From the NCBI GenBank assembly GCA_030522415.1, contig CM060107.1:26720571-26784570 (forward strand): a stretch of 64,000 bases of DNA, in the 5' to 3' direction. The DNA is from Channallabes apus (lineage: Eukaryota > Chordata > Actinopteri > Siluriformes > Clariidae). Made by a program: the position numbers and the translations under genes. The notes under the pieces are model-generated. The model had not been told where the DNA came from and made no database searches. It was given only the letters and a program-made list of their open reading frames with translations. This document shows, one piece after another, positions 1-64,000 of this stretch. Numbering within the stretch: position 1 is the stretch's first letter; each line of letters begins with the position of its first letter.

Positions 1-600
1 GCTAAAATACTGCCTTATGTAGCTTACAGATTTTCGTGATATTTAGATGTAAGGGGAAAAAAAGTCATTGTATGATATTACAAGCCTTGTCTTTATGCAT
101 GGTCATAGTTGATTGATGATGATAACAATATTCAGTAGTTTATTTTATTGTGCTATCACTCTTAAGGTTTTTTTTATCCTAAAAAGTTGTAACAGTGAAA
201 ATGATCAGCCACCTGTTTGATAGAAAGCAAATGCAAACAAGCAGCCAAGATACAGACAGCCCATTACTGTTTCATGGAAAACACAGACTGATGATGACAC
301 TCTGCGATTCCTTCCAACATGGGCACCTGGACCACAACTGGGATCTGGATTAGGAATGGATTTCTTTCTTTCTTTTTTTTTTTTTTTTTAAGTGGATGGA
401 CACACAATAAGTATTTGTCTGCACCTGTGACTGCGTACAACCAGCACTGGGACTGACCTCGGGAGACAGGAATGTTGCCACTGCTGCTCACAGGGTCTGC
501 ATGCATTGTAAAGCAGTGTACTGTATGTTAAGCAGCAACAAACACCATGGAAATGCCAGGTATGCCATGTTCACTTATGTCTTCAGTTAAACAGGAACTG
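1..600. other. ano3 intron, no gene seen
   Basis: AT-rich intronic sequence with a T/A homopolymer near 370-390. No ano3 exon could be recognised on the minus strand, so the next exon is probably outside the window. Confidence 0.5.
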
Positions 601-609
601 CATATACTT

Positions 610-1420
610 TGGTAAAGCTTTGTCCATTAACACCCTTTGTTTCAGCATTCACAAATGCAACTTAAGGCCATACATCAATACCATCCAAAGTTAAATACTT
701 TTCAGGACTCCTTTTCCGAGAAGGACAGTGGTATAATGGAAATGTTTTTTGGTCTGATGAGTCAATATATCAAATGGTTTCTGAAACAACAGCCATGTCA
801 CAGTCAAGTTCTCAGGGTCAAACAGGAAAAGGACTGTTCAAATTGTTATCAGTGTCAGGTCCACAAGCCAGAATTAGTCATGGTATGGGGGTGTGCCAGT
901 GCCCGTGGCATGAGTAAACTGTGTATCAGCGAGGGCACCATTAATGCAGAAAAAAATTATTTTTGGAACAACATATGCTGCCATACAAACACCATCTTTG
1001 TCAGAGGCGTCCCTGTATTTTCCAGTAGGACAATGCCAAACCACATTCTGCTCAGATTACACATGGATGGCTGATAAACACAGAGTACGGGTGCTAGACT
1101 GGCCTGCCTGCTCCAAATTAGAATGTGTAGTGCACTAAGAAGTGCTAAATATGGCATAGAAGAACTTGTACAATAGTGCAGCTAAAGATCTGCAATATGG
1201 AAGAACTGGGGAAAATTTGTGCTACAGTAACTCAACTTGGTGTCTTCAGAACAAATGGTGTCTTCAGTGCCTATATTCTTATAAAGTGTTATTAACAAAA
1301 GTGGTGATGTTGCACACTGGTAAACTATCAACTTCTCTAATTTTTTTTGGAGGATGTTGCAGCCAACATTATTTTTCAGTCCCAACATTTTTGGAATTGG
1401 GATTTTGAAACAAAAATTGG
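610..1420 (+). pseudogene. Decayed Tc1-like transposon remnant
   Basis: A fragment reading VMVWGCASARGM then TINAEK aligns with the LMVWGCMSACGM and TINAEK region of the Tc1-like transposase at 41.6-42.7 kb. Many frameshifts and stops interrupt it, and the second catalytic Asp region is ruined (SSRTMPNHI in place of a DNARPH box). A degraded CCCAACATTTTTGGAATT near 1381 resembles that family's terminal repeat. It is therefore an old copy of the same or a sister family, lying in an ano3 intron. Confidence 0.75.
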
Positions 1421-2369
1421 GATATTTTGAAACAAAAGCTACCATCAATAACCAACATGTTGTTTATAATTTTTGTCTACAGGAAAGTTCAATTAAAAGT
1501 AAATTGAAATACAAGTTCACTTTTGCTAATGAATTTTACAACCAACTTAATGATTGAAAACTTAATGGCCTAAAGAGCATTTAGTGGTCACTGATTAACT
1601 GCTAAAATGAAACTGTAGCTGATGTTCTTGCAGCCAATCATTTCAAGATGCATTTACATATTATAGAAATTTACTGGGAACACTCTAAATTCTATATATT
1701 TTGACAGAATACATGTAGATTTACAAGATTATATTTAACGTGCATAAACACAAACATAATCAGACGTACATATTCTGTAGCATAATTAACTCTTGACAAG
1801 TTTAAAATGACTATGAATAGAAGAAAATAACATTGAATAACATTGCTGATTTAAGTTGATCATCTTATCATTCTTCATTCTGTACAGGGCTGGCTGCTGC
1901 CAGACCCATAAAATTCTGTACTACCAACAGAAAAAATGATTTAAGTAACCCTTCTCACTCACTGCCCACGGGACCCTCATGCATTAGGAAGGCAAGATTT
2001 AACATCAGACGTAAATAGAGTTACTTGCACACTACAGAGCAGCACAGCAATGATGTCAATACAGATTCAGGGTAAAGTGCTGGTCGTTTTCTGGTAAATG
2101 GAAAGAGAATGGATTTCAGCAGCTCTCATTTCATAAGGCTATATCTATGTGCTTTGAAGGCACTTATTATGTTAAACTTGTCAAATTCACCACATTTTAG
2201 ATATTCTCTGAAAAAACTCATGGCAGTGCAAATGTTATGGCTGTTACAAAATGTGAATATTGAGAGCTTAAGCATGCTCTTGATTAAGCGACTCTGAGGC
2301 CACTTGTAAAGGCACAGAAATAGTATGAATTGGCATTTAGAGAGTCTGAGTGATGCGAAAGAAGCTCAC
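1421..2369. other. ano3 intron, nothing recognised
   Basis: AT-rich sequence without a credible coding exon or a recognisable repeat. Confidence 0.4.
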
Positions 2370-9137: not shown

Positions 9138-12100
9138 CTATCCTGTCTCAGTGGTTTAATGTAATGTGGGCATTTATTGATTATGTTGTAAAGGGGGTGT
9201 TTGTTTGTGTCAGGAGAAGCAAATTTTTAGGTAGTAATTTTCTACCCAGAACCTCTATAGTCACTGTATAGGTTATAACTCTATATATCACTCAACCAGA
9301 ATTGCTGAGAAAAAAAAAGGTCTTGTACTATTTTCGTGTGTGTAAAAATGATGTATTCAAACAAGGTTCAGGTAGACAGGTAGCGATGGTGGGTGGAGAT
9401 GATGCAAAGAAGAAAAGAAATTGTGTATTTGTCTGTAGGGTGGTGTATGTCAGGTCTATATTTATAGCAGCAATAGTGAGTGTATGCTCATTTTACAGCA
9501 CCTGTGGATGGAGGGCTGATGTGTGTACAGGAGACAGGAACACTGTCAGTGTGTGTGTTTGCTTTGGGCTCCGAATTCAGAGGCACAGAGAGGAAGTGAC
9601 TCAGGTTGAGAGGATGTGTTTGACTTTGAGCTAGACAGGGCAGACTGCGACGAGACGGCTTCAGACTCTTCTCCTTCAGGATCTCGCTGATACTGGTGTG
9701 CATGCCTGCAGACAGAGATAGACAGAGAAAAAGTCAGCATTCTATTTCTTTCACTGCCTATTTCACAATGCAAATAGTTACAGATTACTTCATGATTAAG
9801 TATAGTGCAAGCAGAGACATCTTTCCTGGATCTGTTCCGAGTTTGATATACAGTATAGTACATGTGGTGTGCAAATTTAATTGAACAAAAAAAAGGGTGT
9901 CACTAAATCTGAATACAAAAAGAAAATCTCTATTCAGAATGTCCAGTTAATAAAGACGGTGTGGAAAAGATCTGAATCATGACTAAACCCCTTACGTGTT
10001 GTCAAACCCAGGAGGAGAAGGGGCAGCGTCCCCAATGACAAAATGATGAGAAGCTAGTGGCGCCGGATGTAATTAAAAATTAATCCACAACACAACTTGC
10101 AGAAAACCCAAAACCTCATTCAAGGTCATTCTGAGAGGAAAGGATAAAGCAGAAGTCATTCTAGCCTTATTATTAAAAATGGCCTGTCTAGAATTTATAA
10201 TTCATTTTCAATGTTTAAATATATTAAGTTAATGATGCTTTGATTAACATTGATGTTGACTTTGATGATATGCAATGGAATGATTTTGTCATTAGTTAAA
10301 TGGTGTGACCTAACGGTGAAAAATACACTTTTTTTTCCTCCCTTTGGCTTCACCTACTTTTTATTGCGGGTCTTAATTCTCCTTATGGTGACCTTCCAGA
10401 GATCAGCTCCATTGATTTCTCTCTCATTTTCTCATGCAGCCTCTTTCTCTTTGTCTCTCCCTCCTCCCCTCCCTCCCCTAACTGGGGAACGCCTTATGGA
10501 AACCCCTGCCATATAAGCACCTGAAAAATGGAAATGATTACTCATTGTAGTCCAAGCCTGCACTTAGGGTAGAGCCAGTGGGGAAGAGAGAGTAGGAAAA
10601 CAAGAGAGAGAGAGAGAGAGATACAGTACCTGGGGATGTTTTCAATTATGGAATAACTGACATGGTTGCTAGGAGCAGATGACTGAAAAAAAATAGATAT
10701 ACGTATGAAAAAAATAGTGTGGCATGTGAGGGTGTAACAATGTCATTGGTTTATCACTTCATGAGCTGAGTGAGTACCATTTTGTGAGTGTGTGTTTACA
10801 GCACCTAGGGAGGACTCTACTGAATCCACTCTTGCAGTTTCAGCACCGAAATGGAGATTTAATCGATTACTCCTGCTCCATTATCTGAATCAAAACTGCA
10901 CCAGTGATTTGAGTTATATGTGGGAGTAAAAGTCAAAGGAGCTATTAAATCTTGGCAAGCAACACCCTTAAAAAGGCATTTGCACAGGCATTCGTAACTA
11001 ACGTTTTCATATACAAATGACTTCATGACATTTACTCTACAGCTATCGACAGTAAAATCAGATTCATAATTCTAGCAGATTTAAGAGACTCCTCTGCATA
11101 TACAGAGCTGTTCAGAACCTGTACTTGGAAATAATTGATAAATGCATCATCATAAAAAATATCATAACTTCACATAGCTTTAAGAAAAACCTAAGCTTAA
11201 ATGCTTCTTATAATAGTTGTAAAATATAAACTATTATGAGTTAATCTGATGGAAAAATATTACAATTTTATATATCTCAAAGATGTATAAGACATTTCTT
11301 TAAATGTATTATTAGTCTGAAAAATGTTACTGCTGTGGACAAAAAGTTCTTGAGCATAGTGTATTGCGTACAATCATAAAGCAGGGAATCATAAAGCAGT
11401 ATCATACTTAGATGATACAGTATAATACATAATAAAATCTATTGTAACAATCTATTATTTTTTACACAAAGGCAGGTCTATCATCTTTAATTCACATTAA
11501 TAAATTTACTATATTGTATGAACATTTGAGAAAAATTGGTTGTAAAAGCAACTCCCCCTGTCCACCGTCACCAAGATCCTGAACCAGGTACAATGTACAA
11601 TACAAAAAAATATATTTACATTAAACTTACATTACAACTGGAGATTTTACATTCAGAGCCAGGGTTCTATAGTGACTAAAAGTGGATGCCAAAAAAAAAA
11701 CATCCTGGCAGCTTTAAGCACCTTTAAACTCAGAAGACTTTGACCATGCCAATTCTCCCACTTGTTAACAAAGTATACTAATTATTTTAAATCGGCTTCC
11801 TTAGTTTGTAGTCTGTAAGCCTTTCAATAGGTATACAACGTATTAAATAAATTCTATATATTATGTATTTCACAAGGTTTAAATGGTAATTTTGTGTTAC
11901 TTTTATAGGTACAGTACATAAGCCATGCACCATTATATATACTGTAAAGTAATTCTTTATTTAGTATATAAACTAACTTTTTGCATCTTAAAAATAGAGG
12001 CAATGTCCCTTGTAAATACGAAGTGCATACGACAACATGCTGTATGTAACATTGTATGGTCTGGTGGTCACATTTGTAAAAATATAGATTTATATGAAAG

Positions 12101-15100
12101 ATAAAAAATAATACACAACTTTTTAACATACTGTAAGGTGCAGTCTTACTTGTAATCTTACTTTAAGCTGAAGAGCTTTGGGACAAAAAAAATTAAATCC
12201 CCTGTGTGCACATACTGTGTATTCCTATTTATGTGTAAAAAGGATGAGACAAACTCTTTGTTATTATAATGCATTTCATGGAGTGATCTTGCATCTAATC
12301 AGATATTCTGAAACAAAAACAGAACAGAGAGAAGTGACCTAAACAACACCCACCCAAAGGAAGTAATGATGCAGGATTCAGCAATCAGTATTTCTCCCAG
12401 TCCTTGGGAATTATAAAGTATAACATATGAAACTATTTGGTTCGTTTAGCATTTTCTGCTGTAAATGTATTTAACTCAAATGTGTTAAAATAAAAGAATG
12501 TGGAGAATACACTTGGGACCATTTCCCTTTTTGAGAATGGAATGAAATTGTGAAAAATTAGGTCAGTGGGTTCCACTGCTACTGTATAACCCTGTCTTGT
12601 TCACTTTGCAGACTTTACATTATTCATTTGTCTTCGTTCAGAGCCACCAGCACTCAGGAGCTGTACAGTATACACACCCCTGTCCCACTAATAGCAATGA
12701 TTTATAGGCGAGAGGTATAGTTCAGCTAGACTAAGTTTGGTGATACTTGTACAGTTTCCCACAATGGATGACTTATAGTACGGCTAACTAAAACACAAAT
12801 CTAAACATTTCATGCATACTGCTTTCAAATGATTTCTCCAGTAAAAGACAGTTTACAACTGGGACAATATCTGAACAGGGTGCTATTTAGTATAGTGTGA
12901 CAAATTGATTGAAAACAAATACAAATTATTATTTTTTTTAAATACAAGTAATAGAATATTTTGTAATAAAGGTTTGTGACATTTATTTTAATGTATATAA
13001 TTTATAATTTAATGTTTATATTAATATTTATATTAATATATCTTATTTAAAATGATGTAAAAAAGTATCCAAATACATACAGTGGTGTGAAAAACTAGTT
13101 GCCCCCTTCCTGATTTCTTATTCTTTTGCATGTTTGTCACACTTAAATGTTTCTGGTCATCAAAAACTGTTAACTATTAGTCAAAGATAACTTAATTGAA
13201 CCCAAAATGCAGTTTTTAAATGAAGGTTTATGTTATTAAGGGAGAAAAAAACCTCCAAATCTACATGGCCCTGTGTGAAAACCACAGTTAAGTAATTTTC
13301 TAACAAGGGGGGGCAATCACTTTTTCACACAGGGCCATGTAGGTTTGGATTTTTTTTCTCCCTAAGTAATAAAACCCCTCATTTAAAAACTGCATTTTGT
13401 GTTTACTTGTGTTATCTTTGACTAATAGTTAAATGTGTTTGATGATCAGAAACATTTTGTGTGACAAACATGCAAAAGAATAAGAAATCAGGAGGGGGGC
13501 AAATAGTTTTTCACACCACTGTATACTTCAATATGAAGTCTCCCTTTTGCAGCTACAGTATAACAGCTTCCACTCGTCATGGAAGGCTGTCCACAAGATT
13601 TTGGAGTGTTTCTGTTGAGAATATTATGCCTTTAAAATGGTCAAATTAGCGCAAACCAATTATAAAAACAAACAGTACTTTCTTTTAGGAGATTTCAGTA
13701 AGAAAATTTTTTATTTAAAAGACATACAATGCTCTCAGAAAATAATTGTAGCACGAGCAAAAACTGTGACACCAGTGACCAACAACAGCACAAATGGTGA
13801 AATCCACAAAATTTACAACCATATTAGCACATGGGTTAAAGGCCTATAAAGTACCAGTCTTTATTTATCAAAATGATTTAAAAACTCATGAAAAAATATA
13901 TATAATAAAAACATATACAAATTAATATAGTAAATACTGTGTGTATTTCCTGGAACATGTTGTGTGATGTTATTCAAATACTGTAATGACCTAACTTTTC
14001 ATCAGAGATGGCTAAATGAAACTAAAAAAGCGTTTCTAAAGTTTTTATGAAGCAGATAATATGGCCGTTCATTTTTTACACAGCCCTTTCCAGAAATCAG
14101 AAATATATCCTTATATTATATATATAATTAGTTTTTAAGGTACATGTTTATTAAGGTATTAGTTTATTTGAGCATAATCAGTTTGAAACACTTTGTCAAT
14201 ATTGTGGAATCCAATTTGTTGAATTAATTTAATCTTTTATCATTTCTCATGGAAAGTAAGACACTGGAGAGACAAGCTCGTCCAGGGTCTCATTTTCACC
14301 TTTGCATGAAAAGTGGCAATATAAAAGTTGCATTTGATAAAAAAGCAAATAAGATTTTGTATACATCCTTACTAATTAACTGTTTGTGACAAAGGCCCAG
14401 GAAAGAGTTGGAACACATACAGAAAACAGATGTTTGAATGTCAGCAAAGCAAAAGAAATTCAAAGTACTAAAACCTCAATTTCCACTATTCTATTACCTC
14501 GGAGATCATTGAATTGCATACATTTTCTTTTGGGAAGAGAAAACAAACTGCCCACGGTGTGAAATCTTGGAGAAGCATGACAGTGAGGTAATTACAGTGC
14601 TAATTATGCGTGGGTGTCCCTTTCTGTCTTTCTCCTCCTTCTCACCCATTTCTGTCTCTTCATCTCTTTGCAACTGTACCTGTAGTCAATAAAGCTCTGT
14701 CTATATAAACTGCAATACCAGTCACATTACTATCTGTAGAATAAAAATATTATGTGCAGTTGTGGATACAATCAGGATGTTCTTGTGTGATATTTGTGTC
14801 TTGAATTTTGCACTGACTTGCTGGCACTGATAAATGTTTTCATACTGTAATACAGCTGTGCACAAGGATCAGTGCGTAAATGCTGCTATATTTATCAGGC
14901 ACGTACAGTAAAAAACTATTTAACCAAGTAGGTAAAAGCCTTTGGTTGAGTGATGACAGGTGTCAATCATATGCTGCAGACAGATGGCATATTCCCCCCA
15001 CGCCAGACTACATCTTGGCATTACTCTCATCCGCCTGTCATACTGTTGCATTAGTGAGACAGATTCGATTATCCTGCCTCTGTGTCACCTGCTTCAGCCT

Positions 15101-18100
15101 CAGGCCCGTTTATCTTTTCTCATCTCATATATGCTTGGTCTTGTTTGGATCAGATTCCATCCATTCTCAAACTGCAATTCCACAATCCCTTTAAATCTGT
15201 CATGTCTCAGCTACTATTTATCTCTCCCTTCATCCTCCTTTGTGCCTTGATTTCTTTGATGCAGGACATATTTTTCTTTAAGCTATAGTTTTTCTATTTA
15301 GCCTTTAAATGACTTATATTATGGTCATTTCTTACAGGCTTCTGCTGGCAAAATTTCACAAGGAATTACACATAAGCAATATAAATTGTCAGAATAATCT
15401 TCTGTGCATAAATGAAACCGATAATGAAACCACTAGAGAGAATTAGGGAAAAGCATCTTCAGTAACTTGACTTTTAGGACTACAACTATAAAACCTTCTC
15501 ACAAAGATGATTTGCTCAATTTAGAGGGTTGTGTACTCTCTGTACATTTGCTGCTAATTTATCTGGAAAAACATTACCATGGAAAGGCCTTGCAGTCTAA
15601 AAACATGATTACTAATATTTTTATGGACCGTCCAGAAAAACTAACATGTACATTATAATAGCCAGACATGCTCAAGAGGATTAAAAAACAACAACGACAA
15701 TGCCTACATTCGAAGTTCTCTGTGGAGAAAAGTTAATAGAATAGAATACAGAAACAGAATTGTTAATGTTGTCCAAATATGAGTATTATTTTGCAGGAGC
15801 AGGTGGCTATGTTATGGATGAAGCAGTCACCTTTCAGTAATGGTGACTTTCATGCAACAAGGCATTCTTAGTTAAGGAGAACAACTGTTGCTCATCTCTA
15901 TGAAGAAATCCTGAGATGCATATCACCTGTTATCTTGCTTAGCATAACTACTGGCATACTGTACCTCCTGACCATACTCTAAATCAGGCACATCATAATC
16001 GTCTGCCCTGTGTGACCTCGGGACCTGATTTAAATAAAACCAGAAGCAGTGCCCTCTTTCCTTTTCAGAATTCAGTCATCCCTGCTCTGATCACTGCATA
16101 TATTCATATTCTAACACCTCCCCCCCCAATCTTAGTGTTATGTAAGTGGACAGGTGGCTAGCCTGTGATCGAGGCAGTGCTGTTGAACACACATACGCAC
16201 ATGCATACACAGAGACTCACAACTGAGGGAATGACGAATTCACAGCTATGCTCGGCAGGGAGTCGTCTCCTTCTCTGTGTCACCCAACAGATTATGATTT
16301 GTGAAAACTGCTGTTATGCATTTAATCACCTGCTACTAGAAGAGCCATCAGTCAGCAAATCAAATTGTTGAATCTTAAATCCGCATTGTACATTTAGTTT
16401 GTATATTTTTCTGTTGTTTTCATGTCATGCTGTTCACATTGCTGAAGGTGGTGTTAGCATCGGTGTGTCCGAGCCATGCAACACACCAGCAAAATAGCCT
16501 TCTCTCAATTGGCTCATCCAAGTTGGCTGCAACAAATATTTATTTCTATTCTAAAACAATAGTGCATTGACTAAGGATTATTCACTATTCAAATGAACCA
16601 ACTTACAGCTTATTTCTTTATACTGTACATACATCTCATCCTAAACCTTTTTAAAACTCTTTTCATCTGACTTTCAACAATTGCCCTCTCACACAATTCC
16701 TCAAACTATTAACCAACACCTCTTGTCCTTTTGCACCTCCATTATAAATAGTTCAGACATCAGCTGCTGACCAATATCATTTATCTTCTTTTTTTCTATA
16801 ATTTATGAATGTTTTATTCAATCAGGTGTTACTCTTTGTTCCACACAGTGACATCCAAGAGCCTAAACAATTTAGTTACTAGGAGACACCTCACAGATAC
16901 TGACCCTGTAATTAGCCACTAGCCCAGTCAAACTATCATTTGTCCTTAAACATCCTTGACTTTTCTCAGAACCCATTGAAACAATCAATCACAAGATCCT
17001 CCTGGCCATCCTCATAAGCCATGCAATTTGTGGCACAACATATCAATAACCAAATCGATCTGAAACCATCTAGTAATGAACACGACCTTGGGATAGTTTT
17101 AAACAGCCAACAACAGTCATCATCACCTTGTACAGTTAACCCTACTTGCTCGTGTAGGTTTCTCCTTCAAAACATCAACTGAATATAATTTGTTTTCAAT
17201 CTAACCAACTTCTCTCATACTCCCCCACTGCTGGGTTCCCACCACTTACAGTATCTTAGCCTTCCTCGGCTGCTGATCTCCGATTTAAAACACTAACGCT
17301 TGCCCACAAAATCAAAAACAAAGCAACCACCTACATACTGTAAGGCATACTGCACTCTTGACTCCATAGGAGCCTCTAACAGAGTTCGACTTGAACCAGA
17401 ATCCCTCAAGGTACAATGAAGACATGCATAAAGTCTTTTCTGTGTTCAGCCAAGCAGATGGTAGAACAATCCTTTGAAAAGACTCTAACCGTCAAGCGCA
17501 GACTAAAGTCCTACCTCTTCACCGAGACTTTGTATTTTTGTTGGCGTACAGACTAGAGGTGTAACAATACACACCAAATCACAAATCACAGTTCGATTCA
17601 ATATACAATACAGGCTTTATAATTTGATTCAAAGAAAAAAATATGACAGAAAAGACTTTTGTTTATTTCTAAATCATTAACAAAGCAAAACAATTAGTCT
17701 TTTGGGTTTATAACTCCCCCCAAAAAACTTAGAGAGAATACTGTACACAAGTTCAGCATATCTTAAAAATATATACTGTATATATTATCTATAAAATACA
17801 TAAGGGGCATTGGTGGCTTAGTGGTAGGCTTCTCGTCTGCCAAGTGAAAGGCACGGGTTCGATTCCCTGCCAGTGCCCAAACCCCAGCTACTGGATGGCG
17901 TGCTGGTCCCAAGCCCGGATAAATTGGCGGGGTTGTGTTAGGGAGGTCATATAGCGTTAAACCTGTGGCAAGGTTGTGTGCGAATCGGATGGTCCACTGT
18001 AGCGAACCCTTGCCAGGAGCAGCCGAAAGACCAACAACAATGTGTAAAAATATATATTATTTAAATAATATACATAATGTATACATACTCCCAAATATTT

Positions 18101-21100
18101 CATTGATTAAATAATGACTCTGACTCCGAGAAGTGATCAACTGAAACCTAATGAGCACTGTAGCAGCATCTGAATTGGAAACCTGAACACCAAAATACCC
18201 GAGCTCCATGACCTCCTTCTTGGGCAATGTACTGTACTGTAGATTTCAGTGGTAAATTCTCTTAATGGCGATTGCCAGTTAAAAGGTTCCGAAGAGCTCT
18301 TTTTAACTGTTAGAGTGTGGGTGTATAAATGTACAACCTACACTGCATTTCATTAGTTGTGATCTTGAACTATTGTGCATTGTGTTATCTATACATTTTA
18401 AACTTTTAAACTTCCAAATGTTCAAACAGTGCCACTGCATCATACAGTATGTATAATTAAGAGAATGCTGATTTACATTATGTAAATCGTCTCGGGTTAC
18501 TGTGCTGTAACCCTGTTCCCTGAAAAGGCGGGAACGAGATGCTGCGTGAAAACGCTATGGGAAGCATTTGTCCTGTTGCCGGTTGTGAAGCATGTGTGCA
18601 AACACGCCAAATTTTTGGGCTATATATAACCTCGGTCAGGTGACGTCATCTGATTAGACACAGCCGCAGGTTATAAATACTAGAGAGCCAGCGACAAACC
18701 TCAGATTAATTTGTCTGAACGGACGTCCGGTCACGTGGTAGTGCGGCATTAGGACGCAGCATCTCATTCCCGCCTTTTCAGGGAACAGGGTTACAGCACA
18801 GTAACCCGAGACGTTCCCTTTCAAAGGCTTTCTCTCGATGCTGCGTGAAAACGCTATGCGAACGAGAATAGCAACGCCGCCGCACTACAAGTTTCTGGAC
18901 CCTAAGTTTGCGTAGCGTGTGCGCACAAAGCCGAGAAGGTCTCAGAACTTTGCCTGGGCAGCTAACTCGGGTGCGTGAGCCCGGAGTAGCATGAACATCC
19001 AGATTATAAATGTAAGAAATGTGTGCGGGGAGGACCAACCCTTCGCGTCACACAATTGCTGCAGGGGATACCTCCTGCTGGTGCAGACTGGGACAATCAC
19101 CCTGGTTGGGTGAGCCCTGCTTCCCAGAGGCGAAGTGAACCCACGCGCCTCATAGGAGAGGGCAAAGCATCTCTCGCCCAGTATAATGGCGCTCTGACTT
19201 ACGCCACTAGCTGATGCGGTGGACGTAAATCTGAAGAGCACATACTGGACAGTAAGTGAAGTTTCTCCTGCTCCGAAGCTGTAGAAGGCAGAGGACAGAA
19301 GGCTTCAAACAATGCAGTTAAGTACATCCTGAGGGTACTAGGGCACAAGCCTAAGGACAAGCTTTTCCTGCAGAAGCTCCAGCACTGAAACATTTCAGCA
19401 GTGGACTGGGTCCACCAGCTTGGCACACACTCGCTGCAGGGGAATACCTCTTGCTAATCCAATAGCTCTGATTACTAGAGGCGAAGTGAGCACAAGCGCC
19501 TCATAGGAGAGGGCAATAGCATCTCTCATCCAGAACCTGTAGAAGCTTCTCTGACCTACGCCACTAGCTGATGTGGTGGACGTAGATCTGAAGAGCACAA
19601 GCTGGATACAGCAAGTGATGTCTCTCCTGCTCCGAAGCTGTAAGCGCGGAGGACAGAAGGCTTCAAAAGCAACAGGGTGCCTGTTGGGTTTATAGAGCTT
19701 TCGGAAGATAGTTGAGAGAGGATGCAGTTACGTACGTCCTGAGAGTACTAGGGCACAAACCCGAGGACGGAAACTCCAAGCACTGAAACAATTCGGCAGT
19801 GGACTGGGTTTACCTGCTGAGCAGACACTTGCTGCAGGGGAATACCTCTTGCTAGTGCAATAGATGAGGTAATCCCCTTGGTTGAAAGAGCCCTGATTCC
19901 TAGAGGCGAAGTGAGCCCACGCGCCTCATAGGAGAGGGCAATAGCATCTCTCATCCAAAACATGTAGAAGCTGCTCTGACCTACGCCACTAGCTGATGCG
20001 GTGGACGTAAATCTGAAGAGCAGTAAAAGGCGAAACATATCTTGCAAGGCAAGAGGTCCACCTTGCTACATGAAATCTCTCCCTGACTACTTCGGAGTGG
20101 GGTTTCCATTCCCCGTGTGTCAGAGATAGACTGGACAGTACTACTGCTCCCGCATCCATGCTGGAATGTAAATCACCCTGAGGGACGGGAACCTGGTGCG
20201 CTAGCTATTAGCGGCGTGAGCACAGTCCGCCCTGGCGATAATACAGTATATGAGACTGCCATAGTGTTGTTCACCCGCACTAGGACATGGCAGCCTCTCA
20301 ACTGCTGGAGGAAGTGCTTTAGGGCCAGAAATAGAGCCATCATCTCGAGGCAATTGATGTGCCATGCTAGAAGATGGCCTCTCCAGCTCCCTTGGGCTGG
20401 ACAGTCATCTGAGACCGCACCCCAGCCTGTGAGGGAAGCATCTGTCGTTAGCCTCAGCGACGACAAGATGAACTTAGAGTGGGACCCAGAGTAAAGACCG
20501 GGGTCTGAACCACATAGAAAGGGTACGAAGCACCTGGCGCGTAACCCTTATTGGGGATTGGCCCTAGTGAAATCCCCTGGTTCTTAGCCACAACTTGGAA
20601 TGCTCTCATGTGCAGATCCTCCCAAAGGTGTCACCGTGGATACGGCTGCCATGAGAGCTAGGATGTCTGAAAGTGATGGTCACTTTCTGGTCTAGCTTGT
20701 TTTCCTTGAGGGTGTTGAGAATGGGTTCGACACGAGCGGGAGACAGCTGTGCCCGCTTACGATCGAATCCCATATGGCACCCAATGTGTTGTCCTCTGAA
20801 CAGGAAAGAGCATGCTTTCGTGGCGTTGGGTCTCAATCCTGAGAACAGAGATGAGCTAGGACGACATGCTGATGTCGAAGCACTAGCTACCGGATGCCCC
20901 GGGACTCCCGTAAGAGCCAGGGCTAAATCCATGCATTTTGCATATGTGCGGGTGAGCTAGACCAATGGAAGGACCCGATACTGGTAAGCTTCGCCCCCGA
21001 AAGCGAACCTCAGGATCTTCCTGTGTTGTGGCAATGTTTCTGTATGAATGTAAGCGTCCTTAAATCGATTGTCAGAAATCAATCGCTTGGTAGGATTTGA

Positions 21101-41289: not shown

Positions 41290-42891
41290 TACAAACCGGA
41301 TTCCAAAAAAGTTAGGACACTAAACAAATTGTGAATAAAAACTGAATGCAATGATGTGGAGATGGCAAATGTCAATATTTTATTCAGAATAGAACATAGA
41401 TGACAGATCAAAAGTTTAATCCAAGAAAAAGTATGATTTTAAAGGAAAATATGTTGATTCCAAATTTCACGGTGTCAACAAATCCCAAAAAAGTTGGGAC
41501 AAGTAGCAATAAGAAGCTGGAAAAAGTAAATTTGAGCATAACGAAGAGCTGGAAGACCAATTAACAGTAATTAGGTTAATTGGCAACATGATTGGGTATA
41601 AAAAGAGCTTCTCAGAGTGGCAGTGTCTCTCAGAAGCCAAGATGGGTAGAGGGTCACCAATTCCCACAATGTTGCGCAGAAAGATACAGTAGTGGCGCAA
41701 TATCAGAAAGGTGTTACCCAGCGAAAAATTGCAAAGACTTTGCAGTTATCATCATCAACTGTGCATAATATCATCCGAAGATTCAGAGAATCTGGAACAA
41801 TCTCTGTGCGTAAGGGTCAAGGGCGTAAAACCATACTGGATGCCCGTGATCTCCGGGCCCTTAAACGACACTGCATCACAAACAGGAATGCTACTGTAAA
41901 GGAAATCACAGAATGGGCTCAGGAATACTTCCAGAAACCATCGTCAGTGAACACAATCCACCGTGCCATCCGCCGTTGCCAGCTGAAACTCTACAGTGCA
42001 AAGAAGAAGCCATTTCTAAGCAAGATCCACAAGCACAGGCGTTTTCATTGGGCCAGGGATCATTTAAAATGGAGTGTGGCAAAATGGAAGACTGTTCTGT
42101 GGTCAGACGAGTCACGATTCGAAGTTCTTGTTGGAAATGTGGGACGCCATGTCATCCGGACCAAAGAGGACAAGGACAACCCAAGTTGTTATCAACGCTC
42201 AGTTCAGAAGCCTGCATCTCTGATGGTATGGGGTTGCATGAGTGCGTGTGGCATGGGCAGCTTGCATGTCTGGAAAGGCACCATCAATGCAGAAAAATAT
42301 ATTCAGGTCCTAAAACAACATATGCTCCCATCCAGACGTCATCTCTTTCAGGGAAGACCCTGCATTTTTCAACACGATAATGCCAGACCACATTCTGCAT
42401 CAATCACAACATCATGGCTGCGTAGGAGAAGGATCCGGGTACTGAAATGGCCAGTCTGCAGTCCAGATCTTTCCCCTATAGAGGACATTTGGCGCATCAT
42501 AAAGAGGAAGGTGCGACAAAGAAGGCCCAAGACGATTGAACAGTTAGAGGCCTGTATTAGACAAGAATGGGAGAGCATTCCTATTTCTAAACTTGAGAAA
42601 CTGGTCTCCTCGGTCCCCAGACGTCTGTTGAGTGTTGTAAGAAGAAGAGGAGATGCCACACAGTGGTGAAAATGGCCTTGTCCCAACTTTTTTGGGATTT
42701 GTTGACACCATGACATTTTGATTCAACATATTTTTCCCTTAAAATGATACATTTTCTCAGTTTAAACTTTTGTTCCGTGATTTATGTTCTATTCTGAATA
42801 AAATATTGACATTTGCCATCTCCACATCATTCCATTCAGTTTTTATTCACAATTTGTTTAGTGTCCCAACTTTTTTGGAATCCGGTTTGTA
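41290..42891 (+). mobile_element. Tc1-like transposon, copy 1 (IR/DR type)
   Basis: 1602 bp, TACAAACCGGATTCC...GGAATCCGGTTTGTA, with about 210-bp inverted repeats. Each inverted repeat carries CCAAAAAAGTTGGGACA-like direct repeats at its outer and inner ends (the IR/DR layout known from Sleeping Beauty-type elements). Flanked by TA. It is about 97% or more identical by eye to the copy at 52.3-53.9 kb, so both inserted recently. Confidence 0.93.
41642..42669 (+). pseudogene. Tc1-like transposase, frameshifted by a 5-bp insertion
   Basis: A DDE transposase that cuts and pastes the element at TA sites. ATG is at 41642; the other copy predicts a 340-aa protein, the usual Tc1 size. Five extra bases, CAGTA (41687-41691), shift the frame and create TAG at 41690. 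From 41692 the frame is open to TGA at 42669. Paired HTH motifs (QRKIAKTLQLSSSTVHNIIR) lie at the N-terminus. The catalytic triad survives: WSDESRF, QHDNARPHSA and SPDLSPIEDIW. Only the start is damaged. The 325-aa open frame begins with GTG, which is not a credible eukaryotic start. Confidence 0.92.
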
Positions 42892-42896
42892 CAATG

Positions 42897-44434
42897 TAAT
42901 GTACTTGCAAAAGTATTCGGCCCCCTTGAACTTTTCCACATTTTGCCACATTACAGCCACAAACATGAATCAATTTTATTGGAATTCCACGTGAAAGACC
43001 AATACAAAGTGGTGTACACGTGAGAAGTGGAACGAAAATAATACATGATTCCAAATATTTTTTACAAATAAATAACTGAAAAGTGGGGTGTGAGTCACCT
43101 GTGTAGAACCACCTTTTGCTGTATGTCTCTACCAGCTTTGCATATCTAGAGACTGAAATCCTTGTCCATTCTTCTTTGCAAAACAGCTCCAGCTCAGTCA
43201 GATTAGATGGACAGCGTTTGTGAACAGCGGTTTTCAGATCTTGCCACAGATTCTTGATTGGATTTAGATCTGGACTTTGACTGGGCCATTCTAACACATG
43301 GATATGTTTTGTTTTAAACCATTCCATTGTTGCCCTGGCTTTATGTTTAGGGTCGTTGTTCTGCTGGAAGGCGAACCTCCGTCCCAGTCTCAAGTCTTTT
43401 GCAGACTCCAAAAGGTTTTCTTCCAAGATTGCCTTGTATTTGGCTCCATCCATCTCCCCATCAACTCTGACCAGCTTCCCTGTGCCTGCTGAAGAGAAGC
43501 ACCCCCAGAGCATGATGCTGCCACCACCATATTTGACAGTGGGGATGGTGTGTTCAGAGTGATGTGCAGTGTTAGTTTTCTGCCACACATAGTGTTTTGC
43601 ATTTTGGCCAGAAAGTTACATTTTGGTCTCATCTGACCAGAGCACCTTCTTCCACATGTTTGCTGTGCAAACGGGACTTCTTATGGTTTTCTGTTAACAA
43701 TGGCTTTCTTCTTGCCACTCTTCCATAAAGGCCAACTTTGTGCAGTGCACGACTAATAGTTGTCCTATGGACAGATTCCCCCACCTGAGCTGTAGATCTC
43801 TGCAGCTCGTACAGAGTCACCATGGGCCTCTTGGCTGCATTTCTGATCAGCGCTCTCCTTGTTCGGCCTGTGAGTTTAGGTGGACGGCCTTGTCTTGGTA
43901 GGTTTACAGTTGTGCCATACTCCTTCCATTTCTGAATGATGGCTTGAACAGTGGCTCCGTGGGATGTTCAAGGCTTTGGAAATCTTTTTGTAGCCTAAGC
44001 CTGCTTTAAATTTCTCAATAACTTTATCCCTGACCTATCTGGTGTGTTCTTTGGACTTCATGGTGTTGTTGCTCCCAATATTCTCTTAGACAACCTCTGA
44101 GGCCGTCACAGAGCAGCTGTATTTGTGCTGACATTAGATTACACACAGGTGCACTCTATTTAGTCATTAGCACTCATCAGGCAATGTCTATGGGCAACTC
44201 ACTGCACTCAGACCAAAGGGGGCTGAATAATTACAAACACACCCCACTTTTCAGTTATTTATTTGTAAAAAATGTTTGGAATCATGTATGATTTTCATTC
44301 CACTTCTCACGTGTACACCACTTTGTATTGGTCTTTCACATGGAATTCCAATAAAATTGATTCATGCTTGTGACTGTAATGTGACAAAATGTGGAAAAGT
44401 TCAAGGGGGCCGAATACGTTTGCAAGCCACTGTA
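42897..44434 (-). mobile_element. Second Tc1-like family, degenerate copy
   Basis: Ends resemble TACAGTGGCTTGCAAAAGTA followed by TTCGGCCCCCTTGAAC. The right end (44390-44434) is good; the left end is worn (ATGTACTTGCAAAAGTATTC). It lies only about 5 bp beyond the end of the first Tc1-like element. Confidence 0.85.
43075..44061 (-). pseudogene. Tc1-like transposase pseudogene with lost catalytic Glu
   Basis: ATG is at about 44061 with a TAG nine codons later, then frameshifts. A segment at 43823-43629 holds TTISRALHKVGLYGRVARRK. A long frame from 43588 carries IMLWGCFSSAGTGKL, FQQNNDPKHKA and SPDLNPIKNLW. In the last motif the catalytic Glu (IEN) is Lys (AAG), so the enzyme would be dead even without the stops. 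Confidence 0.88.
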
Positions 44435-46124: not shown

Positions 46125-49100
46125 CTGCCAAGAGGAGCCAGGAGCAGTTAGAATATTGATGGGTGATAGACCAGTGTAGCATTTATTATGGTGTTTATTT
46201 CAGAGATTCTTAAAAGTTATACTCAATGCAAAAATCATGGCCGCATGTAATTTTAAAAATCACTCAAAGAATAGATTGAGTTGTATCTCCCGGCACTGCA
46301 GAATTATTGACTGAATTCAAAATGAAGTTGTATGAAAAGTATTTTTTTCTCCGTTAACACACAGCACATTAAGGCAACTTTAAACAAATTTCAACCAAAA
46401 CGTCACGTAAATGTTTTCATTTCAATTTCAACATTTCAATTACTTTCTAACTATGTTTTGGTGTCTGTATCGGGAAAGATAATGTCGAGTAATACACCAA
46501 AGTAACAAATGCAAAGTGTAAGTAAATGCAATCAGTCTGTCTAAAATGACAAAGGAATTGCTAGGTAAGTGTGCTTCCTTCATGATTAACCTGAACTTTT
46601 GAAAATATCGCCATAGCAACAGATATAAGGCTAAACAATTCCGTTTGTGATCAGATACAGGTTGACTGCCAGGTTAACATTGCAGAGCGCTACAATAAAA
46701 AACAATCAAACAAAAAATTATTATTCTAAAGGGGTGTTCAAGTCAAAGTGGGATTCTTGACTGTGCAGAATAAAAGAACACTGTTAATGAGATTAAAATC
46801 TAATTTTATTTCTCTATCAAATCCTCTGCTACACTAATGCACAGAACCTGCTAAAATGAGGCGGTGTGTGTCTGTACAATGTAACTATTAGTCAGTTGAA
46901 CATTCTAGTATATTATGGAAATAAACAACTACAAGATCATTTGTACTGCTACAATAAATGAAATAATGTTTATACTGCCTGGTATTTGCAGATAACGTAT
47001 AATAATTTCAATATAACAATCTATGCTGTGTTCTATGTACCTTACCTGTGTGTGTGCGCTGGTGGCAGCGGAGGTTGAAGCGGTCTCTGAAAGCCTTGTT
47101 GCAGTCAGGACAGTGCAACATTTTCCGATGCACTCGTAGGTGGTTGGTTAACTGCGAGAGGGAGGGGAAGCGCAGATCACAGTGTTGGCAGCCCAGACTT
47201 TGCCCAGGAGTACATATGTGTTTTCTTAGGTAGTCAAACCTCTTGAACTTGCTACCGCAGTCTGGACAGTCAAGTATACGTTTTAATTTTGTCCCTGTGG
47301 TTATGTTCCCATTCTTATTAGCTCGTCTTGGTGAATTCTTTATTGATTCGCCACTATAGCAAGGTCCGTGAAGCACAACTTGAGTATCATTTCTAATCAA
47401 TGGTGTGTTTTCAGCATTCAGCACTGGCTTTATGTCAACCAGGGATGGGGAAAACATAGCTTCAGAAAACCGTTCCTCTTCAAAATGCTCCTCTCCAACA
47501 GTAACTACTAGGCTGTGGCTGTCAGACGGGAGGACTGGTTCAGAGTCCAGCTTCTTTAGCTCGTTTGAGCTGATGTAATCCCTGAAATGGGTTTAGGTCA
47601 AATATTAATGACACTTATTTTATGAGGATACATTATCCACATTCTGGCTGTAGAATTTATTTTAACTCAATTTTATAAAAGACAAGTACATAATTTTTCA
47701 ACATTATCTCCTACACTTTGTTCATCCGTTAACAAGCTTTCATACTCCGTCATTTAAAAATGTTTTAGGCTAAGCTGCAAGCCACAAATGCACCTTCGTC
47801 TTCAATTCTTCAATCATAGGGCTGTTTTCAGGGGTTTAAATACATCTCAACAACGAGTCAGCACCACAGATACACACACAGCAATGCATGTCTGGATATA
47901 TTTTCCACATTCTAGAACAATACTGGATTTTTTTTCTACTATCAATATATGAAATAACACATATTGTATGGCATTAGGGTATTAAGTAACAATTACAATG
48001 CTCAGTTGTTATTTTAAGACACAAAGGTCAGCTGTTCTGGAATAGTTCTTGCAAGAACAGAATTATCAGGTACTTTTGCAAAATCGATCAAGCACCATGA
48101 TGAAACTGCCTCTCATAAAGACCTTCCTAGAAAAGCAAGTCCAAAACGTACCTCTGCAGCAAAGGTGAAATTCATTTAGTGTTACCAGCCTCAAAAATCA
48201 CCAGTTAACAGCAGCTCATATTAGAACCATTATGAAGGCTTTAAAAAGCATAAGTAGCAAACACACCTCAATATTAGCAGTTCAAAGTAGATTATTGCAT
48301 ATTTTGGATGCCTTTAGTATTGTTTTACAATGTAGAAAGAAAGAAAAATCAGGAAAACAACATACAGTAGAATTAAAAGGTGTGTCCAAACTTAACTGGT
48401 GATGGACACAGACATACATGGCTTTTCCATTAGACAGTGCGGCAGACTTAGAACTAACTCTACTCCAGACACATACTTGTATGTGTTTCTCATTACATTA
48501 GAGAATGTAAAAGCACACACTGTTTTCCATCGACAATGGACTGATGATTAGTAATGGGGAACTCTGCATTACCTTGAGTAGCCATGATCAGCATGTGCAT
48601 CTTCATGATGGCTCTCCTTCTCTTTGTTCCATTCAGTCCTGGTACCTTCCAGGATGGATGCCGCCATGACAGCAGCCTCCTCCATGTTCTGCGGCTGCTC
48701 TTCGCTTGTCTTCTCAATCGCATCAGGTGGAAGAAGAGAGAGAAACTTCTGCAAAGCCACTTTCCTTACCACTTCCTCAGAGCTGCACCTTTCGGGCTGA
48801 AGCCACTTCTTTGCTGCTTCCTCCACCCCTACTTTTAGTTCTCGCACCCCCTGGTTAGGATCATACTGGACCTTGTTGAAGTCCCTCCACCGCTGATACT
48901 CCAAGGAACATGCCTGTTTCCTCATGTTTGACTTCACAGCTTCATAACTCAGTTCATGTTCATCCTCATCGCACGTCTTCACACAGAGGAGCTGTGCCAA
49001 CCTCGAACCCCATTGTCTCTTTGGGAGTTTACTGTCATCCAAAGCTCGTTCGAAAACAGACAGTGAAAGCTCCAGATCGTCCCCGGTCAAGTCCAACTGT

Positions 49101-49246: not shown

Positions 49247-49410
49247 AGACTCTGCACTCAGATTCAGAAAAAGATAAGAAATGAAGGGAGAAGCAAATTA
49301 ACATAAAAAAAATTATTGTGCACAGATGTACACTTAACTTGATGAAATTATAAATTCTGCAATACTGGGAAATCAACAAGAGACCTGGTATATCGGATCT
49401 GAGAATATTT

Positions 49411-52307: not shown

Positions 52308-53904
52308 TACAAACCGGATTCCAAAAACGTTGGGACACTAAACAAATTGTGAATAAAAACTGAATGCAATGATGTGGAGATGGCAAATGTCAATATTTTA
52401 TTCAGAATAGAACATAGATGACAGATCAAAGTTTAATCCGAGAAAATGTATCATTTTAAAGGAAAAATATGTTGATTCCAAATTTCACGGTGTCAACAAA
52501 TCCCAAAAAAGTTGGGACAAGTAGCAATAAGAGGCTGGAAAAAGTAAATTTGAGCATAACGAAGAGCTGGAAGACCAATTAACAGTAATTAGGTTAATTG
52601 GCAACATGATTGGGTATAAAAAGAGCTTCTCAGAGTGGCAGTGTCTCTCAGAAGCCAAGATGGGTAGAGGATCACCAATTCCCACAATGTTGCACAGAAA
52701 GATAGTGGAGCAATATCAGAAAGGTGTTACCCAGCGATAAATTGCAAAGACTTTGCAGTTATCATCATCAACTGTGCATAATATCATCCGAAGATTCAGA
52801 GAATCTGGAACAATCTCTGTGCGTAAGGGTCAAGGGCGTAAAACCATACTGGATGCCCGTGATCTCCGGGCCCTTAAACGACACTGCACCACAAACAGGA
52901 ATGCTACTGTAAAGGAAATCACAGAATGGGCTCAGGAATACTTCCAGAAACCATCGTCAGTGAACACAATCCACCGTGCCATCCGCCGTTGCCAGCTGAA
53001 ACGCTACAGTGCAAAGAAGAAGCCATTTCTAAGCAAGATCCACAAGCACAGGCGTTTTCATTGGGCCAGGGATCATTTAAATTGGAGTGTGGCAAAATGG
53101 AAGACTGTTCTGTGGTCAGACGAGTCACGATTCGAAGTTCTTGTTGGAAATGTGGGACGCCATGTCATCCGGACCAAAGAGGACGAGGACAACCCAAGTT
53201 GTTATCAAAGCTCAGTTCAGAAGCCTGCATCTCTGGTGGTATGGGGTTGCATGAGTGCGTGTGGCATGGGCAGCTTGCATGTCTGGAAAGGCACCATCAA
53301 TGCAGAAAAATATATTCAGGTTCTAGAACAACATATGCTCCCATCCAGACGTCATCTCTTTCAGGGAAGACCTTGCATTTTTCAACAAGATAATGCCAGA
53401 CCACATTCTGCATCAATCACAACATCATGGCTGCGTAGGAGAAGGATCCGGGTACTGAAATGGCCAGTCTGCAGTCCAGATCTTTCCCCTATAGAGAACA
53501 TTTGGCGCATCATAAAGAGGAAGGTGCGACAAAGAAGGCCCAAGACGATTGAACAGTTAGAGGCCTGTATTAGACAAGAATGGGAGAGCATTCCTATTTC
53601 TAAACTTGAGAAACTGGTCTCCTCGGTCCCCAGACGTCTGTTGAGTGTTGTAAGAAGAAGGGGAGATGCCACACAGTGGTGAAAATGGCCTTGTCCCAAC
53701 TTTTTTGGGATTTGTTGACACCATGACATTTTGATTCAACATATTTTCCCCTTAAAATGATACATTTTCTCAGTTTAAACTTTTGTTCCGTGATTTATGT
53801 TCTATTCTGAATAAAATATTGAAATTTGCCATCTCCACATCATTGCATTCAGTTTTTATTCACAATGTGTTTAGTGTCCCAACTTTTTTGGAATCCGGTT
53901 TGTA
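52308..53904 (+). mobile_element. Tc1-like transposon, copy 2 (IR/DR type)
   Basis: 1597 bp with the same ends and about 210-bp inverted repeats as the copy at 41290. It is 5 bp shorter because it lacks the CAGTA insertion. TA flanks. A TACAGTA heptamer lies 2 bases outside the right end. Confidence 0.93.
52660..53682 (+). pseudogene. Tc1-like transposase with early nonsense codon
   Basis: ATG is at 52660 and the full frame would give 340 aa, ending at 53682. Codon 27 is TAA (52738-52740) where the other copy has AAA, a single A-to-T change. Otherwise the frame is open, with HTH region and catalytic motifs WSDESRF, QQDNARPHSA and SPDLSPIENIW intact. Because the two copies carry different lesions, each shows the intact state at the other's break. 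Confidence 0.92.
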
Positions 53905-57189: not shown

Positions 57190-57241
<52 letters not shown>

Positions 57242-60519: not shown

Positions 60520-60865
60520 TACACTACCACTCAAAATTTTGGGATCGCTTGCAAATATCTGTTTTTGTTTGGCTCTCTTGAAGACCATCACAGGAAGGTA
60601 AGATCAGCACTTACTGTACCTCTGCTGCAGAGGAGTTACAGTACCAGCCTCAAAAATCACCAATTAACAGCAACTTAGATTACAGCCATTATAAAGGCTT
60701 TAAAGATCATAGTACTGTAGCAGACACATCTCAATATCAACTGTTCAAAGGAGATTATTGTATATTTTGGACGCCTTCAGCATTGTTTTACAGTGTAGAA
60801 AGAAATAAAAATCACAACCGACCTTGAAGTTAGAGAGTGATCCCAAACTTTTGAGCAGTAGTGTA
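60520..60865. mobile_element. Tc1-type non-autonomous repeat with three pentamer insertions
   Basis: The ends ACACTACCACTCAAAATTTT and CAAACTTTTGAGCAGTAGTG are inverted, with TA borders. Compared with its relative at 48.14-48.41 kb it carries CTGTA (60616), CAGTA (60640) and CTGTA (60708) as extra 5-bp blocks, each next to a TA. Confidence 0.8.
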
Positions 60866-60869
60866 CTAG

Positions 60870-61365
60870 AAACACAGCAAAAAATTACTCAACTAAGAGT
60901 AACCTGATGAAAAACTAATTGAATAATTACAAATTACTTTTTTTTTTTAAAAATCAGTGCTGTAGTGCAGGGTATATGCAGGTATCCAGTGTGTACAGGC
61001 ATACACACTCATATTTTGAGAGTTAGGAGATTAGAACAGTGGATGATGTCTCCTTTGATTGGTCACTATAAATGTCCACAGGCTGCTCCCTCTGACCCCT
61101 TGTTCAGTGGCAGAAGGGTCAATCAGACATAGATGATAACATCTATTTCATCAGTCTTCTTACACATTAATGTCTTTCAACAATCCCATTTTAATATGGT
61201 TTAAAAGTAATTTGGTTTAGTACATGCACACAATAATATTATGTCCCTTGTGACACAAAGCAAAATGTGTCCATTTCTGGAAATTAAAATATACAAATAA
61301 ACAGGGAAGGTGAAGCTATCCAAGCAAAAATCAGCTCACACACATGAACTTTCTCTTTCTAGGGT
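60870..61365. other. Intergenic, nothing recognised
   Basis: AT-rich. The five bases before the LTR (61361-61365) are TAGGG, one side of a possible target duplication whose partner lies outside the window. Confidence 0.35.
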
Positions 61366-62011
61366 GTTACGACTGTCTAGGGGACTGTGTCGTAGCAAAA
61401 AGGTGAGTGAAGGAGTCTCACTACCAAAGAGGTTAGGAAATTGTATTTCTTTTTATTTCTAGGCAAAAAAAGATAAGGGTTACGAACTTCAGAGGTTGAC
61501 CAGGCCAAAATAATAAACAAAATGGTCTTCTTTTAAGAAGAACTAGATTCCTAAGTCAAAAGAAAATAAAACAAGATACATAAGGCTTCTCTAACTCCCT
61601 AACCAAAAACAGAGTACAAAATATATACAACAAAAGAAATGGCATCAACCTCCTACTGCCCTTAATATGATGAAAGTATTTACAGTATTTACAACAATAT
61701 GAATCGATGGCTAACAAATGAAAAACAGAATCCAAACTCGTATTCAAAAACAGGCTTAAGGTCACATCAACAGTCAGACTAACAATTCTCTCTAGTAAGA
61801 AACTCGAATATACAAAGACCAATTTGAACAAAGAGACACACAGTGGCACCAAAGGCATCTGAAAGGAGTTTGGGGTGGTCCTTTTATTCTGGTTGGTTGA
61901 GGAGATGAGCCAACCGCAGCATCCGGTGAATTACCTGGAGGAACACTCACCTGAAAGGCAAGCAAGTACCCAGAAAGAACAGCAGAGGGCAGAATAACAA
62001 ACTCCTAACAC
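61366..62011 (-). repeat. 3' LTR of the Gmr1-like element
   Basis: 646 bp from TGTTAGGAG (62011 on the minus strand) to GTAACA (61366), i.e. TG...CA with 5-bp inverted ends. The GGATGGGGG polypurine tract sits immediately upstream. Boundaries are inferred from these signals, since the partner LTR is not visible. Confidence 0.75.
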
Positions 62012-62046
62012 CCCCATCCATAAAATAAAACATTATGTTTTAAATG

Positions 62047-64000
62047 CTAATTAACACGGGACAGAGAATCAGCAATCACATTGTCTGTACCCTTTTTATG
62101 ACAAATTTTCAAATTGTAACCTTGACAAATTAATGACCAGCGCATGAGACGATGGTTGGTATTGGACATGCGTTGGAGAAATATCAATGGATTATGGTCG
62201 GTGTAAACATTGACAGGTTGTACAGTGGAACCAATCTACACTTCAAAATGTTGCAAAGCAAAAATTAATGCAAGGGTTTCCTTTTCGATGGTACTATAGT
62301 TTAATTGATGTTTCAGGAACTTTTTTGAAAAAAAAAAACTGATAGGATGATTTAAACCATCATTCCCGACCTGTAATAGTACAGCACCAGCACCGCTACC
62401 ACTAGCATCAACTTCCAAAAAAAATGGCTTTTCAAAATCAGGGGCAACAAGCACATGGTTTGTACACAGCAACAACTTTAGAGCATTAAATGCAGATTCA
62501 CATTCAGCGGACCATTTAAATGTGACTGCTTTTCGGAGCAGTCCTGTTAGAGGACCGGCAACTACAGAGAAATTCCTACAGAAACAGTGATAATACCCGA
62601 TCATTCCAAGAAATCGTCGCAGCTCTCTTTGGTTCTGTGGAACTGGTAAATGAAGGATTGTGTCAACCTTCGAATTCAAAGGACGAACTTTACCACTTCC
62701 GACCTCTTTACCCAAATATGTGACAGTAGCACATCCAAATTCACACTTAGCCAAGTTCAGAGTAAGGTTAGCAGCTTTAAGTCGCTCAAAGACTCCACGC
62801 AAGGTTTCAAGATGATCTTTCCATGTATTATCATAACACACAACATCGTCTAAGTAAGCCTCACAATTAGACATGTTAGACAACACGATAGACATAAGTC
62901 GTGGAAAAGTGGCACCCGAATTTCGAAGTCCGAAAGGCATAACCCGATATTGTAGGAACACATCAGGGGTGGCAAACGCAGAAATCTCAAATGCACGCGA
63001 TTAAAGGGGCACCTGCCAATATCCTTTTAGCAAGTCGAGTTTCGTTACAAATTTTGCGTTCCCAACCCGGTCGACACAATCTTCCATGCGTGGTATGGGA
63101 AAAGAATCAGCTTTTGTAACTAAATTTACTTTCCTGTAATCTGTACAAAATCGTGACGACCAGTCAGATTTGGGCACGATAAGACATGGAGAACACCAGG
63201 GACTAGAACTCGGGACAGCCAACTCATGTTCAAGTAAATACTGTGTTTCTTGTTTCATAAGTTCTCTCTTAACTGGATTTACCCGATAAGCATTTTGCTT
63301 AATAGGCGCATGTGAACTGACATCAATGTCGTGCATTAACACTTGTGTCATTGAAGGAAAATCACCAAACAAGGTTGGATAACTCTGAATCAAGTTTCTA
63401 ATATCAGCTTGGTTGGAAATTGATAAATGAGATAACTTGGAAGAAAGATTCAACAAAGTTTCTGAGTTAGACAAACGGGCAGTAGTGAACATGGCGCTAT
63501 TCATCATCAAATCATCATTTTCTGGCGAGTATTCGGCAAGGGACGCCACTGCTGCTGCAACAGTGACAACAGGACGCTTCTCCACAGAATCGTGACGGGT
63601 CACATATGCTTTGAGCATATTTTCATGACAGACACGCGACTTCTTCCTACGTTCAGGAGTGGAAACAACATAATTAATATCACTCAATTTTTCACTAATT
63701 TCATAGGGACCAGTGAATTTAGCTTTCAGTACTGCACCAGGCACAGGTAGTAAGATTAAAACTTTATCTCCGACACAAAATGAACGTTGGACAGCTTTTT
63801 GATCATAACGACATTTCATTTGTTCTTGTGCCGAGTCAAGCGATCGTTTTGCCAGTTTCCACATTTCGTGTAGCTTTTCGCGGAAAGAACTAATATATTC
63901 TGGGACGTTTTTCACGGGGGCTTGGTGAGTAAGGGACAACATTTGCTCCTGCAAAATTTTCAAAGGACCGCGCACTGTGTGTCCGAAGATCAGCTCTGAC
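62047..64000 (-). pseudogene. Gmr1-like pol (integrase C-term, RT, RNase H) with two in-frame stops
   Basis: One continuous minus-strand frame runs from the window edge to TAG at 62049-62047. It is broken only by TAA at 63003-63001 and TAG at 62238-62236. In order: end of the integrase core (ELIFGHTVRGP), a basic region, a GPY-type module (KFTGPYEISEKL), a spacer, the RT fingers (WCSPCLIVPKSDWSSRFCTD), LDLLKGYWQVPL, the YLDD box (62856-62845) and RNase H (VDASGSGAGAV, STIEKETLALIFAL). The final DHNPL and ADSLSR motifs lie after the second stop. Otherwise undecayed, hence a young insertion. Confidence 0.88.

Follow-up and report, generated by a model that had tools for sequence, protein, structure and literature searches.

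Sleeping Beauty and mariner transposases are described as nicking three nucleotides inside the element, which produces three-base 3' overhangs, and the end joining that follows excision leaves footprints with the sequence of the overhang (PMC7827188). The footprint listed for Sleeping Beauty and Frog Prince is C(A/T)GTA (PMC3878927 Table 1), i.e., a pentamer added at a duplicated TA and read, with that TA, as TACAGTA or TACTGTA (PMC4378557). In zebrafish a Sleeping Beauty excision footprint is reported to have been inherited through the germline, in one of 26 fish screened (PMC520745, where the footprints are printed in the reverse direction). Here we have analyzed a stretch of 64,000 bases of the Channallabes apus genome (contig CM060107.1, positions 26,720,571 to 26,784,570; hereafter the window), in which the same two heptamers, with the identical pentamer at TA and in both forms, occur 86 times. 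Most of these heptamers very probably mark sites from which CAG-ended Tc1-type transposons were excised in the germline.

The Sleeping Beauty and Frog Prince footprints described in these sources were induced, in cells, embryos or mice, whereas the heptamers of the window lie in natural, germline DNA at about one per kb. Stowaway, a Tc1/mariner miniature inverted-repeat transposable element (MITE), has likewise left short fragments of its terminal inverted repeats (TIRs) between TA duplications in the Triticeae, as seen by comparing relatives, but the account concerns few plant loci and several footprint types, whereas the window holds a single uniform type which is regionally dense (PMC1925063). 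Excisions of DNA transposons have likewise been counted by genome comparison in two rice species, where only eight of 94 putative excisions are given as having just the duplicated target site, the rest showing deletions, filler or both (PMC4423477); this is unlike the large number of uniform, TIR-derived footprints in the window. In the mechanism proposed here a CAG-ended Tc1-type element would insert at a TA and duplicate it, the transposase would on excision cut three bases inside the element end, the three-base overhang (CAG or CTG) would stay between the duplicated TAs, and the break would be closed by end joining to give TA-CAG-TA or TA-CTG-TA, with a net gain of five bases. All of the steps needed are therefore already known, and the unusual part is the number of traces: the chemistry is familiar, and it is the density in a natural genome that looks new. 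Among the matches listed, none described a genome-scale excess of TACAGTA/TACTGTA in a natural genome, subscription literature lying mostly outside the search.

Abundance and word specificity of the heptamers

All counts given here come from the window alone (38.9% G+C), and all heptamers are given on the plus strand. The exact count is 37 copies of TACAGTA and 49 of TACTGTA, a density of 1.34 per kb, the two forms being present in similar numbers (P 0.24). The preliminary description, which had counted about 80 by eye, was thus close to the exact figure, and the eleven positions it gave as examples are all real and lie zero to four bases from where it had placed them (exact starts 519, 5218, 7617, 9849, 12664, 18230 with 18235, 28732, 35545, 37973, 55389, and 59754). 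Markov models of order 1, 2, and 3 give expectations of 10.0, 13.7, and 16.8 heptamers, falling to 9.0-10.9 when the heptamers themselves are masked, and 100 simulated order-2 sequences contained a mean of 14.3 (sd 4.0, maximum 26). Expectations of 30.5 and 59.3 were obtained with order-4 and order-5 models, which use words already holding most of the heptamer.

When all heptamers were ranked by z-score, only TATATAT stood above TACAGTA/TACTGTA at orders 2 and 3, and no word did at order 4. Among the words of the form TA-N3-TA, TA-CAG/CTG-TA had z = 19 and the next word z = 3.6. One-letter variants of the heptamer were found in 3-30 copies each, with the exception of the middle A/T swap, which is the complement; some of these variants were mildly raised (TACATTA, 29 against 14.5 expected; TACAGTG, 30 against 13.9). 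The one-mismatch words together numbered 292 against 215 expected, from which a rough reading of footprint decay may be possible. Since 86 heptamers were observed and 10-17 are expected by chance, our conclusion is that footprints account for roughly 70 of them, which amounts to about 1.1 per kb and 1.5% of the 4693 TA sites.

The mouse genome has a size of 2.7 Gb. At that size the more than 300,000 copies given for the two heptamers together (PMC4378557) correspond to about 0.11 per kb; the density in the window is 1.34 per kb.

Five-base insertions in repeat copies

Self-BLAST of the window produced 30 repeat pairs. An insertion test was applied to nine pairs in 15 directions, eight of them from the self-BLAST list and the ninth (6131-6330 with 32281-32527) with its range set by hand; the five bases after each TA were deleted in turn and the global alignment was rescored. 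Of 313 TA sites in the test nine start a heptamer, and removal of the pentamer raised the alignment score at five of these nine (41685, 29721, 60612, 60637, and 60713) against eight of the 304 other TA sites (Fisher P 6e-6). Three of those eight (29716, 29726, 60710, 32051, 32057, 32080, 47687, and 18000) share the gap of an adjoining heptamer. In a BLAST version of the test a spanning match was available for nine of the 86 heptamers; removal was better at 29721, 41685, 60612, and 60713, as well as at 17774, and worse at 6210, 41892, 52905, and 60637. Among 379 control TANNNTA words 26 had a spanning match and removal was favoured in five; two of these five are part of a low-complexity AT run and a third is next to the heptamer at 29721. 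In the global test, five of the nine heptamers compared thus show five bases gained with respect to an empty TA. We infer that the uncompared majority of 76 heptamers shares the excision origin, and presumably the density extends past the 64-kb window.

The best documented site is the TACAGTA at 41685..41691, which lies inside a Tc1-type element (copy 1; 41290..42891 with its flanking TAs, plus strand) with TIRs of about 215 bp and the ends CAAACCGG...CCGGTTTG. This copy contains DDE_3 and HTH_Tnp_Tc3_2 domains and matches the Sleeping Beauty SB100X chain (E=2.2e-50). A second copy (copy 2; 52308..53904 with its flanking TAs, plus strand) is 97.9% identical and is without the pentamer: seven gap columns separate the two, and five of them amount to a single CAGTA, which copy 1 carries at a TA. 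When 68 TA sites of copy 1 were tested, 41685 was alone in showing a gain on removal (+8). The transposase frame is open across this site in copy 2, which has its own in-frame stop further along, and runs into a stop directly after the pentamer in copy 1; the pentamer is for this reason the added state. This one case of a scar that breaks a transposase frame suggests that the elements also inactivate each other through insertion followed by excision.

Three further heptamers lie within about 100 bp in a repeat relic (60570..60814, plus strand), the partner copy of which (48107..48351, plus strand) is empty at all three sites. The TACTGTA at 60612..60618 is a five-base insertion at TA (+4.0) and that at 60713..60719 a five-base insertion accompanied by a separate one-base difference (+3.5), while the TACAGTA at 60637..60643 is a probable five-base insertion which a neighbouring deletion obscures (+1.0 in the global alignment). 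Within this relic removal helps solely at the three heptamers and at one TA overlapping one of them. The TACTGTA at 29721..29727, in the repeat 29599-29885, is a five-base insertion with respect to 31904-32209 (+4.0, tied with two adjoining TA sites). The TACTGTA at 17774..17780, where removal was favoured in the BLAST version, is embedded in an AT run (ATATA-TACTGTA-TATAT), and the TACAGTA at 10622..10628 is directly 3' of a GA repeat run; the heptamer at 1223 is close to a Tc1 remnant, where the alignment is too poor for a verdict.

Two pairs of heptamers overlap, TACTGTACTGTA at 18230..18241, a pattern expected if a second excision had hit the TA of the first footprint, and TACTGTACAGTA at 28732..28743. 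Both are compatible with repeated use of TA sites; simulated random placement at TA sites gives 1.6 such doubles.

Weighing of alternative origins

Several observations weigh against an excision origin of the heptamers. A chance background of 10-17 heptamers is expected among the 86, and a footprint is singly recognisable only with a repeat copy at hand. In the insertion test, which covered nine chosen pairs, not all repeats, and in which TA sites of the same pair are not independent of each other, removal lowered the score at 41892, 52905, and 6210 and left it unchanged at 32108, and the gain at 60637 was small and reversed in the BLAST version. A tenth heptamer, at 57398, aligns gap-free with TACACTA, so that four of the ten heptamers comparable with a repeat copy are non-insertions (6210, 41892, 52905, and 57398), with 41892 and 52905 representing one heptamer that both Tc1 copies carry. 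The CAG-ended elements recognised in the window are few, and others may be hidden. The density is also uneven, with 71 heptamers in 1-38600 and 15 after it, against 237:142 for the other TANNNTA words; the boundary at 38600 was picked after seeing the data, and the imbalance is not accounted for by TA content. Local clustering was considered and set aside: 18 gaps of 100 bp or less were found against 11.6 simulated over the whole window (P 0.024), and 14 against 12.5 within 1-38600, and because there is no excess within that region the clustering of the whole window reflects the regional difference. CpG depletion as a mark that footprints accumulate in older DNA was also rejected, as in 2-kb bins the heptamer density falls with the CpG ratio but that of the control TANNNTA words does likewise.

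The flanks of the heptamers give mixed evidence. Near the TA there is a bias in A (44% against 32% at position -3; 20% against 32% at -2). The half-site AYA is a target form of Sleeping Beauty; it was found, having been chosen after viewing the flank table, in 25 of 172 heptamer flanks, 51 of 756 flanks of other TANNNTA words, and 41 of 578 one-mismatch flanks, and is more frequent beside the heptamers than at all TA sites (6.75%; P 3e-4). The target preference reported for Tc1-like elements is ATATATAT (PMC7913693), which predicts ATA beside the TA. Two results count against excision here: ATA showed no significant excess (12 of 172 against 36 of 756 control flanks, P 0.25) and triplets composed entirely of A/T were scarcer than in the controls (33 of 172 against 260 of 756, P 9e-5). 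ACA alone was in excess (13 of 172 against 15 of 756, P 6e-4). The flanks agree in part with a Tc1 target preference; with the AYA signal being mainly ACA and not ATA, and all-A/T triplets fewer, target-site preference was dropped as a line of support.

The heptamers could instead have been multiplied by copying, as part of a single interspersed repeat family, or of a few, with TACAGTA in the consensus. The single heptamer shared by the Tc1 copies at 41892 and 52905, the location of 29721 and 57398 in related repeats, and 24 pairs of flanks with at least 8 of 12 bases alike, against 17 in controls, all point this way. There is, however, no shared flank consensus, the mean flank identity of the 86 heptamers being 3.17 of 12 bases against 3.20 in controls, while base frequencies 4-10 positions out differ little from those at all TA sites (P 0.0045 to 0.93, with slightly more G) and a spanning BLAST partner within the window exists for just nine of the 86; we regard such an origin as improbable. 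The word might also have become common without any insertion, through a bias in composition or mutation or because it is a frequent binding motif, as the mildly raised one-letter variants and the expectation of 59 from an order-5 model which includes the hexamers could suggest. Against this stand the excess over the models of order 1 to 4, the steep fall in number at one-letter changes, the clean five-base indels, and the mouse, for which the count in PMC4378557 implies no comparable density, and we hold such an origin to be very improbable. It is equally hard to credit that some other process puts CAGTA/CTGTA at TA, e.g., abortive or incomplete transposition with no full transposon ever present. 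The sequence of a footprint cannot reveal the element which departed, and the flanks match the published ATATATAT preference poorly; yet the pentamer is the exact excision product given in the cited sources for CAG-ended Tc1 elements, and such elements are present in the window.

Excision of CAG-ended Tc1-type elements is thus the origin that we favour. The preliminary description had already proposed this mechanism, and it is sustained by the specificity for the exact word, by the five-base insertions at TA and by the CAG-ended elements, and tempered by the chance background, the non-insertions and the partial fit of the flanks. The five-base insertions which that description had seen in pairwise comparisons hold for five of nine heptamers in repeat copies and fail at four of the ten that can be compared. 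Cut-and-paste transposons are normally counted by their remaining copies, and jumps without a surviving copy go unseen. If the window is representative and the genome has a size of about 1 Gb, it seems rather likely that on the order of a million Tc1 excision scars can still be read in it, and that they exceed the CAG-ended elements which survive many times over. Insertions of five bases at TA would in that case make up a major indel class of the lineage, and the scars would allow the jumps per surviving copy to be counted directly; should footprints persist at such density, the number, age, target choice and repair outcome of vertebrate germline excisions would become countable from plain genome sequence.

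Candidate source elements and other features of the window

A donor of the proposed kind would have CAG termini and a Tc1 transposase, and both are present in the window. Among 48 listed sites with TACAGT followed by C, G or T, five CAG ends were recognised, at 13078/13523, 44434, and 39487/45739; the CAGT ends noted in the preliminary description at 13078, 44434, and 39487 are all among them. The footprint-type heptamers exceed these five ends many times over. The palindromic MITE-like element at 13078..13523 (plus strand) has the CAG ends TACAGTGG...CCACTGTA and would leave a TACAGTA/TACTGTA footprint. The element at 42904..44434 (minus strand), distinct from the Tc1 copies described above, has 189-bp TIRs, of which one end is TACAGTGGCTTGC and the other, the left, is without CAG, and it contains a transposase remnant (DDE_3). 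It lies nearly back to back with copy 1, about 12 bases apart, within 41290-44434. The CAG end TACAGTGAGGGGAAATA at 39487..39503 (plus strand) recurs as an identical 17 bases in the opposite direction from 45739; the two ends are 6.3 kb apart with copy 1 and the element at 42904..44434 in between, and are possibly those of a single old element with later insertions inside.

The copies at 41290-42891 and 52308-53904 end in CAA and not in CAG. The footprints would therefore stem from other, CAG-ended families, while these near-identical copies would be expected to leave TACAATA, of which there are 24 copies against 14-16 expected, an excess too weak for a claim. The fully filled footprint TACAGCTGTA has no copy in the window. 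TACATTA/TAATGTA, as given above, and TACAATGTA (7 against 1.2 expected) are mildly raised, and it is possible that they are footprints of families with other termini. No relative of the Tc1 transposase was confirmed by tblastn in viral and prokaryote collections. In the blue catfish a repeat table gives 189,344 Tc1-IS630-Pogo copies, 8.2% of the genome (PMC9270728).

The remaining features of the window are the 3' element of a UnaL2 LINE (9045-9098), a tRNA-like match (17807), and a reverse transcriptase/RNase H fragment (62239-62997). By its UnaL2 element and its Tc1 content the window resembles the DNA of a ray-finned fish. Open frames with C2H2 zinc-finger and SCAN domains lie close together on the minus strand at 47011-49294 and belong to either a host gene or a mobile element.

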